Origin: Oscillospiraceae bacterium
GTDB taxonomy: Bacteria; Bacillota; Clostridia; Oscillospirales; QAMX01
Length of the DNA stretch: 64,000 bases
Assembly (NCBI GenBank): GCA_015067825.1
Contig: SVLQ01000001.1
Coordinates: 138,485 to 202,484 of the forward strand
Direction: 5' to 3'
How positions within the stretch are numbered: position 1 is the first letter of the stretch; each line of letters starts with the position of its first letter. The notes beneath the pieces are model-generated. The model was not told where the DNA came from, did no database searches, and saw only the letters and a program-made list of their open reading frames with translations. Shown piece by piece: positions 25,801-29,998 of this stretch. Made by a program: the position numbers and the translations under genes.

Positions 25801-27183
25801 GTGAAACGATCTGTCCGTGCACTGTCGTTTGCGTTGCTAATTGCAATGCTGTTGTCCGCATGCAGCCCTACACAAGCCCCTTCATCCACTTCACAAGGGA
25901 CCACCGCGCCAGCCACATCGCAAGCTGACTTATCACCAGCATCGACAGAACCATCTGCTATGGTGACGGTAACCTCTGCCGATACCAAACCTGCGACCGA
26001 TGTCTTCGCCGCTGTCCGCGAAAGCAACGAAACATGGCTTGCACACGGTCTTCGTGCCTACGAAAGCGGCAAAGAACCCATGAATCTGCGAGCCTTTTTC
26101 ACAAGCAGCCAACTGAATCTTTCGTACTTAACCTTGTATGAGCATATGTTTGTCTATGACGAGGCTACTTCCATCACGGTTGCAGAGGCGTTGTTTCGCT
26201 TTATATGTGATGAATTTGGCCCGGAGGCCCTGACTGATTTGACCAAACGGACAGAGTACAAAACGGCCTACCTGCAGTCGTTGGGAATCGACATGGCTTA
26301 CACAAATACGCCGGAGTTGGAAGCTCTTTTTGCCTCGATGAAGCTTTGGCGGCAAAGCGAGTATAAATATATTTTGTCTTTTGACAATATCCACTTTTAT
26401 TTTCCGGACTTCACTGTACATCCGTCCACATACAACGGCCTGACGTATTATACCGTAATCGGCCTAAAAAGCATGATCGCCTTTTTAGAGGAAAACGGTT
26501 TCACCGAATATGTAAATCCGGATCGCGATTTCCACTTTTTTATGCCGTTGGAAGGCGGCATTTCGTACACCAAAGAAAATGGAATGATGTACATCAATGA
26601 CCCTGGGGCACTTCAACACGAAGCCGTCCATGCAATGGGAATCACATCGTTACCTCATATGTGTCATATGTGGTTGAAAGAAGGAATCTGTACCTATATC
26701 GGCCAAATTCTGTTTGAAACGCAGTGGAACAGCGCCAGAATCTTTGAGCCGTTGGCGCTGGCTGCACAGGGATACTACGATGCGGCTGCTGATTCCGGCG
26801 ATGCTTTGGCAGTTAAAAGGCAGGCAATTGCTCAAAAGTACCTCGCTGCCGGCGGTATTCTCGAAGCCACAGCAGAAGGACTATCGAAATTTGATTTTCG
26901 GTTGTATTATGATTTAGTTGCATTATATGAGTTTGAAACCAAGCAATACGAAACGTTATATGACGTTTTTATAGCACTCAACCCAACGTATTCCGGACAG
27001 GAATACATTGGCCAAGACCTGTCCTATGCCCAAGCCGGCTCCATGGTAGCATATTTGGCCGAGGACTATGGACTGGAAACTGTATTGAAAGCACACGAAA
27101 CACAGGATTTAGAGGGAACATTTGGCAAAGGCTACGAAGCCTTGAAAGCCGACTGGCTTGCGTATCTTGCAAAATTCAAATAA
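25801..27183 (+). CDS. Lipoprotein with gluzincin-type zinc peptidase motif
   Basis: 460 residues. The signal sequence ends in the lipobox LLSAC with C21 as the lipidated residue, followed by a Ser/Thr/Pro-rich linker to about 65. A zinc motif HEAVH (H273, H277) is followed by WLKEG with E294, as in gluzincin peptidases, though the spacing is shorter than the M1 HEXXH-X18-E. It should sit on the outer face of the membrane. The start is GTG with GAGAGG upstream. Codon use is more A/T-rich than in nearby housekeeping genes. No family beyond the fold could be named. Confidence 0.7.
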   Translation: MKRSVRALSFALLIAMLLSACSPTQAPSSTSQGTTAPATSQADLSPASTEPSAMVTVTSADTKPATDVFAAVRESNETWLAHGLRAYESGKEPMNLRAFFTSSQLNLSYLTLYEHMFVYDEATSITVAEALFRFICDEFGPEALTDLTKRTEYKTAYLQSLGIDMAYTNTPELEALFASMKLWRQSEYKYILSFDNIHFYFPDFTVHPSTYNGLTYYTVIGLKSMIAFLEENGFTEYVNPDRDFHFFMPLEGGISYTKENGMMYINDPGALQHEAVHAMGITSLPHMCHMWLKEGICTYIGQILFETQWNSARIFEPLALAAQGYYDAAADSGDALAVKRQAIAQKYLAAGGILEATAEGLSKFDFRLYYDLVALYEFETKQYETLYDVFIALNPTYSGQEYIGQDLSYAQAGSMVAYLAEDYGLETVLKAHETQDLEGTFGKGYEALKADWLAYLAKFK

Positions 27184-27226
27184 ATTACAGCCCTTCGGCG
27201 TTTATCACCGAAGGGCTGTAATTTTT
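27182..27226. terminator. Bidirectional terminator
   Basis: A 17-bp perfect stem (27182-27198 with 27108-equivalent arm 27208-27224) between the convergent lipoprotein and HTH-desulfoferrodoxin genes; T-rich on the plus side. Confidence 0.8.
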
Positions 27227-27809
27227 ATACTTTTTGCCGCAACAAACCGTGTTTGTTGCAGTAAACGTACAGATATCCCTGTCTGCGCAGCTGCAGGCGT
27301 GTTTCGGCGTTGCCCTCGGGATAGAGCTTGACGAGGCGGAAGCTATCGGGGGTGACGTAGGCGAGGAAGGAAATAAAATGTTCTTTGGTCATGTCGTGAC
27401 GAACGGTTAAAAAGTGCTCATCCTCGACTGGTTCGATTGCAATTCTATGTTCCTCGTCCACTTCTTCCGCGCTCAGACACGGCAGCGTGATCCCACAGCA
27501 GCTGATCAGCGCGCTGCCGATCGCGTGGATCACATTACCGCAAACCGGACAGACGTAGATCCTCGTGCGCAGCATATTGCCCGAAACGTTTTTGTTGACG
27601 ATCGGCTGCCCGGAGAGAAGTTCCGCCACCGAGACGCCGAGTGCACCAGCCAGCGGTTCGAGCAGGGAAATATCCGGCAGACCTTTGGCGGTTTCCCATT
27701 TTGAGACCGCCTTATCGGAAACACCGACAAGCGCGGCAAGTTCTGCCTGCGTCAGTCCCTTGGATTCCCGCAGAGACCGGATCGTTGCGGCTGTTACGTA
27801 GTTATCCAT
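27225..27809 (-). CDS. HTH (XRE) regulator fused to a 2Fe desulfoferrodoxin/superoxide reductase
   Basis: 194 residues. Residues 6-66 form an XRE-type helix-turn-helix (LRESKGLTQAELAALVGVSD). The rest is a full desulfoferrodoxin: C87, C90, C104 and C105 match the Fe(Cys)4 desulforedoxin centre, and H121, H138 (HDM), H144 (KEHFI), C184 and H187 (CNKHG) match the Fe(His)4Cys centre that reduces superoxide. All ligands are kept, so it could both detoxify superoxide and use either iron site to tune DNA binding. The second reading is inference. Lone gene with its own promoter. Confidence 0.88.
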   Translation of the reverse strand: MDNYVTAATIRSLRESKGLTQAELAALVGVSDKAVSKWETAKGLPDISLLEPLAGALGVSVAELLSGQPIVNKNVSGNMLRTRIYVCPVCGNVIHAIGSALISCCGITLPCLSAEEVDEEHRIAIEPVEDEHFLTVRHDMTKEHFISFLAYVTPDSFRLVKLYPEGNAETRLQLRRQGYLYVYCNKHGLLRQKV

Positions 27810-27845: not shown

Positions 27846-27874
27846 AGTATACCGTATTTTCCAACGATCTGCAA
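27846..27874 (-). promoter_or_regulatory. Promoter of the HTH-desulfoferrodoxin gene
   Basis: Minus strand TTGCAG (27874-27869) and TATACT (27851-27846), 17-base spacer. Confidence 0.65.
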
Positions 27875-27890
27875 CCTACGCTGCGTAGAG

Positions 27891-27928
27891 AAAAAATCGA
27901 TCCCTTCGGAATATCCGAAGGGATCGAT
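27891..27928 (-). terminator. Terminator after the flotillin gene
   Basis: A perfect 14-bp stem (27896-27909 with 27915-27928); on the minus strand it runs into TTTTTT (27896-27891). Confidence 0.85.
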
Positions 27929-27940
27929 ACGTATGAGCAA

Positions 27941-29320
27941 TTATTCTTCCGAACCGGATTCTTCACTATGCGGTTTGCCGAGATACTCCGGCAAGTCCAT
28001 ACCGGCCATTTGAAAGAGATCGTTCATCGGGGGGATCGATTTCATCAGGGAAGATGCAAAGTTAGCAGTTGCAGACGTGCCATCCTTGCTGCCGCCGTCC
28101 CAAACAGTGATCTTGTCGAACTTGAGGTTCTTGATCGCTTCGACTTGCGTCTTGACGAGCTCTTCGAGTTTATCGGCGATCATCAACTTGATTGCCTGGC
28201 TCGGGTCGCCGCCGGCGGCACGCACAATCTCCGCGAGACCAGCCGCCTGCTTGACAAGTTGAATTTCCATACCGCGGGCTTCCGCTTCCATTTTGGCGTA
28301 GATGGCCTCGGCTTCGCCTTGTGCGCGGATCTTAGCGCGTTCGGCTTCGGCCAGCGCTTCAATCTCAATTCGTTTGCGGTTGATCTCGGTCTGCACGATA
28401 ATATCGGCTTCCAGAGTAGCCTTTTCCTTGTCGGCACGCGCCGCTTCAGCAGCCTGTTCAGCGGCGTAAGCTTCTTGCAGAGCCTGTGCCGCCGCAATCT
28501 TTTCCGCAGCGGTCGCACGGCGCAGAGCGTCGGCTTCGACTTCACGGCGAGAAGCATTAGACTGCGAAATTTCCGCCTGTGCGTTGTTTTCACCTTGGAT
28601 GGCCTTGGCATTGGCGTCAGCAACTTGAACACGCTGATCCATGTTGGCATTAGCCTGGCCGATTGCGCCGTCGCGATCCTTTTCAGCAACAGAGCGTTTG
28701 GCGTCGTTGATCGCTTTTGCCGCCGCTTCTTTACCGAGCGCTTCGATGTAGCCGGATTCGTCATTGATATCCGTGACGTTGACGTTGATTAAGCGGAGAC
28801 CGATCTTTTTCAGTTCCGATTCCACATTACCCGAGACTGCCAACAAAAACTTATCGCGGTCGGCGTTGATCTCTTCGATGTCCATCGTTGCAATGACCAA
28901 ACGAAGCTGGCCGAGAATGATATCCTTTGCCAATTCCTGGATTTCAACAAGCTTCAACCCGAGCAAACGCTCGGCGGCGTTTTGCATGATTGTCGGTTCG
29001 GTCGAAATACCAACAGTAAAGCGAGAGGGGACATCAATGCGGATGTTTTGGCGGGAAAGCGCGTTGCGCAGATCGACGCTAATAGAAATCGGCGTCAGAT
29101 CGAGGTATTCATATGCCTGAAAAACGGGCCATACAAACGACGCACCGCCGTGGACACAGCGCGCCGACCGCGTTGTTCCGTCGTTGTTGCTACCGACTTT
29201 ACCGTAGATCACCATGATCTTGTCGGACGGACATTTGCGGAAGCGAGAAATTACCAAAATCAAAAGCGTGAAGAACAATAGCGCGATAACAGTGATCAAT
29301 CCAATCACGAACGGTGACAT
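27941..29320 (-). CDS. Flotillin family membrane scaffold protein
   Basis: 459 residues. An N-terminal membrane segment (about 5-26) precedes an SPFH domain (about 30-200) and a long Ala/Glu/Lys-rich coiled coil with EA repeats (about 205-360), the flotillin layout. Such proteins organise functional membrane microdomains and recruit transporters and signalling proteins. The tail ends MDLPEYLGKPHSEESGSEE. It lies 51 bases after the NfeD-like gene, as in the B. subtilis yuaF-floT pair, and ends at the 27891 terminator. Confidence 0.93.
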   Translation of the reverse strand: MSPFVIGLITVIALLFFTLLILVISRFRKCPSDKIMVIYGKVGSNNDGTTRSARCVHGGASFVWPVFQAYEYLDLTPISISVDLRNALSRQNIRIDVPSRFTVGISTEPTIMQNAAERLLGLKLVEIQELAKDIILGQLRLVIATMDIEEINADRDKFLLAVSGNVESELKKIGLRLINVNVTDINDESGYIEALGKEAAAKAINDAKRSVAEKDRDGAIGQANANMDQRVQVADANAKAIQGENNAQAEISQSNASRREVEADALRRATAAEKIAAAQALQEAYAAEQAAEAARADKEKATLEADIIVQTEINRKRIEIEALAEAERAKIRAQGEAEAIYAKMEAEARGMEIQLVKQAAGLAEIVRAAGGDPSQAIKLMIADKLEELVKTQVEAIKNLKFDKITVWDGGSKDGTSATANFASSLMKSIPPMNDLFQMAGMDLPEYLGKPHSEESGSEE

Positions 29321-29371: not shown

Positions 29372-29998
29372 TCATGCGTGGTCCGTCAGTCGTTCAACGA
29401 TCAGGGAATCCCCCAATAAACCTGACACAAAGACTTTTGATCCGGTAGGCAGAAAATCGTCTCCATCCCAAATCGCCTCTACTTCGCATAGCTTTCCGTG
29501 CAACACAAGACTAATCTTGCCGTTGCCACGCTTTTTCGGCGGAATAGGGATATAGACTTCGCCAACCGTACCAACTGCGTTTTTCAGTTGGACGGCGCCG
29601 TTTTCCTGCAGACGTTGTACAGCCCTCATGACGAATGCGTAGATAATATCTGCCACCGCACCGGAAATCAAACCGACAGTAATCGATAACAGAGGCGATT
29701 GCTGTAAGCTGACGACCAGTGTAGTCCAACTACCGATGGCAAAAAATGCAAGGATACCGCGCAGCGTAAACAGCTTTAAGCCGCCAACTTCGTCCCAGTC
29801 CGGTCCGTCATCAAGATTATCTACCATGTCTGGTAGGCCATCTCCGTCAGTATCTACTGCGACACCGCCCGGTCCGCTGTCAGAGAGTCCAAATAGAAGT
29901 AACGCAAACTGAACAACTAAAACAATCGTTGTCGGCACCGCAATACACAGAGCAATTTGCTGGTACAACGCCAATGACTCCCAGAACGCACTCATCAT
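29372..29998 (-). CDS. NfeD-like membrane protein with an acidic DxDxDG loop
   Basis: 208 residues. TM1 is at about 13-38, two further helices at about 78-100 and 105-128, and a C-terminal OB-fold-like domain (about 138-208) matches NfeD proteins that partner flotillins. Between TM1 and TM2 lies VDTDGDGLPDMVDNLDD (48-64), a calcium-binding thrombospondin type 3-like repeat not expected in this family. The domain call for the OB fold rests on VGTVGEVYIPI and the partner gene. Confidence 0.8.
   Translation of the reverse strand: MMSAFWESLALYQQIALCIAVPTTIVLVVQFALLLFGLSDSGPGGVAVDTDGDGLPDMVDNLDDGPDWDEVGGLKLFTLRGILAFFAIGSWTTLVVSLQQSPLLSITVGLISGAVADIIYAFVMRAVQRLQENGAVQLKNAVGTVGEVYIPIPPKKRGNGKISLVLHGKLCEVEAIWDGDDFLPTGSKVFVSGLLGDSLIVERLTDHA

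Follow-up and report, generated by a model that had tools for sequence, protein, structure and literature searches.

The closest described relatives of the protein studied here belong to the HTH-Dx-SOR class, in which an N-terminal helix-turn-helix (HTH) precedes desulforedoxin (Dx) and superoxide reductase (SOR) domains in the same order as in our protein. This architecture is already known and has been catalogued since 2011, when SORGOdb defined the class with 19 proteins; the main text of that work describes no operator, function or loss of the catalytic lysine for it (PMC3116461). Among openly readable papers, a full-text search for the class name returned PMC3116461 alone, and a broader one yielded no functional study, in keeping with an earlier, sequence-only reading of the locus that described such fusions as present but little studied in Clostridia. 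XRE regulators typically control their own expression, binding as dimers to palindromes in their promoters (PMC12565409). Based on our data, we favor, with a probability of about 0.6, the reading that the fusion described here is an XRE-type transcription factor that regulates its own gene and has a repurposed two-iron superoxide reductase as its sensor.

The fusion gene lies in a 64,000-nucleotide stretch of DNA (the window) from a gut-type Clostridia bacterium. It occupies positions 27225-27809, as the sequence-only reading had correctly placed it, and runs on the minus strand from an ATG at 27809 to a stop at 27225, encoding 194 aa. Terminator-like hairpins are found on both sides (minus strand), one at 27182..27224 after the stop codon and the other at 27896..27928, where it ends a flotillin-like operon just before the putative operator; intrinsic terminators in these positions suggest that the gene is probably monocistronic. 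The pair just upstream, a flotillin-like (Band_7) gene and a small membrane-protein-like ORF before it (27941-29320 and 29372-29998, minus strand), resembles a floT operon. A conserved partner gene of the family was rejected, the neighbors being at background with rare exceptions, and so was a phage or mobile origin, a search of viral contigs having given HTH-level matches only.

Residues 10-64 (27618..27782, minus strand) form an XRE/Cro-C1 HTH (PF01381, HTH_3, E 3e-15; TMt 0.89 with the DNA-binding domain of the P22 c2 repressor). Residues 82-191 match desulfoferrodoxin models at scores under the curated cut-offs, with 21.8 bits for PF01880 (cut-off 22.2; 22.9 bits in another search), 14.6 bits for PF06397 (cut-off 23) and about 36 bits for TIGR00320 dfx_rbo (36.2, E 5.8e-9; cut-off 146.9), the last placing the protein below the curated level of desulfoferrodoxins. 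Judged by these scores, the C-terminal half is homologous to desulfoferrodoxin yet beneath its thresholds; of the profiles proposed as a check by the sequence-only reading, the one for the HTH was recovered and the two Pfam families of the iron domain fell short. In phmmer, the protein matched the D. baarsii SOR (2ji2/2ji1) with E about 1e-6 and with the ligands aligned, the C-terminal ones included. The AlphaFold2 model (mean pLDDT 91) matches P22/434-type repressors in its HTH part and Dx-SOR crystal structures in its C-terminal part (2ji1 and 1dfx, E 1e-9 to 5e-9, TM about 0.71-0.72 on the target), the best match by TM-score (0.79) being the class III SOR of T. pallidum (1y07), a protein without HTH. 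The joining of an XRE HTH to a desulforedoxin and SOR fold, as previously read from the letters, is confirmed. Moreover, the observation is not due to chance, because full-length homologues in which the ligands are invariant are spread across Clostridia (at least 575 matches). Treponema TrtA, a 104-aa XRE protein without a Dx-SOR domain, was rejected as a relative.

The residue numbers given earlier for the nine iron ligands proved exact. By ligand mapping and alignment, C87, C90, C104 and C105 (CX2C-X13-CC; 27495..27551, minus strand) make up a desulforedoxin-type Fe(Cys)4 site, and by alignment to D. baarsii, H121, H138, H144, C184 and H187 (27249..27449, minus strand) correspond to H49, H69, H75, C116 and H119 of SOR-type site II. 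The fold, the four Dx cysteines and the five site II ligands are shared with class I Dx-SORs (D. baarsii 2ji1, D. desulfuricans 1dfx), from which the window protein differs by its extra HTH, the absence of Lys48, a loop before His49 three residues shorter and a Dx loop two residues shorter; the Dx motif in the SORGOdb text is CX2CX15CC (PMC3116461). The catalytic Glu47-Lys48 pair of SORs is E119-E120 in the window protein, followed by H121, and no Lys or Arg is found in residues 106-121.

We compared 141 fusions with a set of standalone SORs from 30 Clostridia loci and D. baarsii (31 in all). None of the 31 standalone proteins departs from Glu47, Lys48, His49 or Pro51, whereas the fusions keep Lys48 in only four cases, Pro51 in three and Glu47 in 72. 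In all 141 fusions the active-site loop before His49 is three residues shorter than in standalone SORs, and the Dx spacing is X13 in 101/101 close homologues against X15 in 27/31 standalone proteins. Cys87, Cys90 and Cys104 are kept in every fusion, and Cys105 is replaced by His in ten. All nine ligands are retained by 89 of the 101 members of the window protein's own group and by 22 of the 40 divergent members, in part of which the catalytic iron ligands decay: six members have lost four of the five site II ligands together, in at least three separate losses on the tree. The operator described below is retained by these six relatives, directly in five cases and, in L142, at the head of an apparent operon. 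Since the six occur in genomes both with and without a standalone SOR, loss of site II through redundancy was rejected. In five close homologues, His replaces Cys105 and Asp replaces His187 at once, and each replacement is also found alone in three (L171, L173 and L177-L179 are among the members concerned), hinting at a coupled change of the two metal sites.

The sequence-only reading had called the protein a complete superoxide reductase that may both remove superoxide and report it to DNA. As far as the alignments tell, it is complete in its ligands, not in its catalytic residues. With Lys48 absent, the loop shorter and site II lost in relatives that keep the operator, efficient superoxide removal is unproven and is not a constant function of the family; the reporting to DNA is supported strongly, if indirectly, by the conserved operator at the gene's own promoter. 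An enzyme that truly reduces superoxide and in addition signals it to DNA, its HTH tuning production to demand, would agree with the intact Dx site and catalytic-iron ligands, and an operator at its own promoter suits an enzyme that controls its own level. The fusion is the only SOR in the window's genome, where no Fe/Mn superoxide dismutase was found, and for this reason some superoxide or electron-transfer role of the window protein is possible. Rubrerythrin is present in this genome. SORs without the Lys (I. hospitalis, from the title of a PDB mutant, 'T24K') and without the Glu (N. equitans, from a title cited in PMC3116461) also exist, so that low activity may persist; we give residual superoxide chemistry in the window protein slightly less than an even chance. 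Nevertheless, the loss of Lys48 here and in 137/141 fusions, the partial loss of Glu47, the loss of Pro51, the shortened loop and the retention of the operator where the catalytic iron site has gone make such a true enzyme unlikely.

The fusion gene is preceded by a putative operator, the palindrome CTACGCAGCGTAG (CTACG-N3-CGTAG; 27876..27888, minus strand), whose dyad is centered at -43 from the inferred transcription start. Directly after it (GTAG-G-TTG) comes the -35 element TTGCAG (27869..27874, minus strand) and, after a 17-nt spacer, the -10 element TATACT (27846..27851, minus strand); the same spacer length was found in 89/96 homologous promoters. The family consensus reads TCTACG-N3-CGTAGG-TTG-N20-TATAAT, in which TTG begins the -35 hexamer and the 17 nt follow it. 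As a conserved, putative operator-promoter module before the genes of this family, it is new here. The 434 and P22 c2-type XRE repressors share the HTH fold and a palindromic operator of similar length (14 bp in 434, 13 bp here); the fusion differs from them in its sensor half, an iron domain, and in having one site at one promoter where they have a phage switch.

The dyad CTAC-N5-GTAG is exact upstream of 46/98 close homologues, against a shuffle maximum of 6, and sites with at most one mismatch were found for 87. In 96 close homologues the arms and TTG are 90% identical, in contrast to 29% for the flank and 27% for the spacer; as the latter two are near chance, shared descent alone does not explain the conservation of the operator. 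A single fixed module score that includes the -10 box (threshold 16) was passed by 118/138 family promoters, 0/138 shuffles and 7/928 other nearby genes, and since it was built after the motif had been seen, the argument rests on the comparison with shuffles and with other genes and not on the raw rate. Four of the seven other-gene passes (L142, L148, L152, L154) concern a small gene that lies ahead of the fusion gene and shares its orientation. Another (L171) concerns an FMN-reductase/flavodoxin-like gene just before the fusion gene; in these five, the putative operator thus stands at the start of an apparent operon including the fusion gene. The small gene encodes about 117 aa, with no Pfam match in the three that were scanned. 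The remaining two passes (L022, L122) belong to an XRE zinc-ribbon gene with its own inverted repeat. Divergent clades retain the module with altered half-sites, GTTTA accompanying SDKTISKWERG helices and GTGGA accompanying PKTVSKWETG.

In the window's 2.7-Mb genome, the exact palindrome CTACGNNNCGTAG is found once, in the promoter of the fusion gene. No one-mismatch sites of TCTAC-N5-GTAGGTTG were found in this genome, nor any excess indicating a regulon at up to two mismatches (26 sites versus 38 for the reversed control). One two-mismatch operator-like site there precedes a probable ABC transporter gene (L207, G000:C22:154113) and comes with a perfect TATAAT; it is unconvincing and may be due to chance. 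Across 291 genomes, 11 of the 20 exact TCHAC-N5-GTAGGTTG sites lie directly upstream of the fusion gene, each being the sole such site in the 11 genomes that have one beside a close homologue. For the divergent-clade version the corresponding figure is 9/16, and most of the other exact operator sites examined fall inside coding sequence. Control of standalone SORs in trans was rejected, the operator being present in 0/20 of the regions upstream of these genes in genomes that carry the fusion (best score 14.1, against a threshold of 16). A perfect operator and promoter precede, in trans, a CatA-like (PF00302) acetyltransferase gene (L263, G243:C2:2655112), and in L125 a similar acetyltransferase-like gene comes directly after the fusion gene, which suggests that divergent clades have a small regulon. 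An operator with TATAAT is also found upstream of a DUF2087 (PF09860) gene (L262, G184:C1:785335); this gene and the acetyltransferase gene of G243 look like trans targets in those clades.

The window's genome encodes other XRE proteins with up to 59% HTH identity to the fusion. Before the gene of the one at 59% (L002, G000:C4) stands an element that loosely resembles the operator and keeps the same distance to the gene, so that sites of this kind could be bound by XRE proteins other than the fusion; a centre at -43 may be a frequent trait of this XRE subfamily. The operator might then belong to a different regulator, the HTH of the fusion binding elsewhere or only localizing the protein. Three observations make this highly improbable: the site is essentially confined to the fusion gene or its operon, its half-site varies from clade to clade in step with the HTH of the fusion, and two naturally occurring forms of the close-homologue Dx-SOR domain that have no HTH (L160, L161) are both without operator. 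The fusion itself is probably the protein that binds the putative operator, and its self-regulation is, on these sequence comparisons, well supported. The regulatory half of the earlier guess seems, in this respect, better supported than its reader could know.

Dx-SORs dimerise, and the fusion would do so through its Dx-SOR part, allowing the two HTHs of the dimer to bind CTACG-N3-CGTAG at its own promoter. The operator abuts a weak -35 box, in which TTG is followed by little conserved sequence. A dimer centered at -43 could help the polymerase from a class II position or block it, and the sign of regulation may be either activation, which would suit the weakness of the -35 box and the rigid spacing, or autorepression. 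The iron sites, through their redox or metal state, would alter DNA binding or the contact with RNA polymerase and so set the level of the protein. Signal input would most naturally fall to the iron domain, and we hold the chances that iron or redox state is the signal to be about even.

The Dx-SOR fold might also be a zinc- or iron-stabilized structural or dimerisation domain with no redox sensing, as the decay of site II in several lineages and the Cys105 to His change, common in zinc sites, would allow. We regard this as quite improbable, since 89/101 of the window protein's group keep all nine ligands, more than dimerisation needs. Thus, owing to an almost private conserved operator at its own gene and the family's loss of the catalytic lysine, the fusion appears closer to an iron sensor that regulates itself than to an ordinary enzyme of detoxification: Lys48 persists in 4/141 fusions against 31/31 standalone SORs, three Dx cysteines in all 141, and site II was lost three times. 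Against the sensor model count the enzyme-like retention of all nine ligands by the window protein and 22/40 divergent members and an HTH-less version (L160) directly after a nitroreductase-family gene, which suggests redox chemistry. A pure sensor would also have little purpose if it acted on its own gene alone, so that the domain may do something more, by catalysis or metal binding, or weaker targets may exist; a few trans sites are indeed found in divergent clades.

The fusion is carried by 63 of the 291 Clostridia genomes sampled. In a tree of the C-terminal domain, fusions and the 31 standalone SORs are split by a single branch with 100/100 support, in keeping with our favored reading. 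A standalone SOR is present in 33 of the 63 fusion genomes and missing from 30, and the fusion was thus rejected as a mere substitute for it. Several standalone SOR matches (e.g., G105:C79, G046:C33, G126:C88) occupy open frames of 207-216 aa, which exceeds the length of a Dx-SOR, and are possibly another fusion or just long open frames.

SoxR, a MerR-family protein with a [2Fe-2S] cluster, controls transcription through its iron centre in response to oxidants. The fusion would work alike, and the two families are unrelated. To our knowledge, no dedicated superoxide-sensing transcription factor is established in Clostridia. We tentatively suggest that the family may comprise widespread one-component sensors of superoxide/oxygen or iron in Clostridia, in which a former SOR came to supply the sensory half of an XRE regulator that has a private operator. 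If true, this would provide an unrelated counterpart of SoxR in obligate anaerobes and a clear case of an enzyme fold turned sensor, and with the family in about a fifth of the sampled Clostridia genomes and a defined short operator, the question is directly testable.
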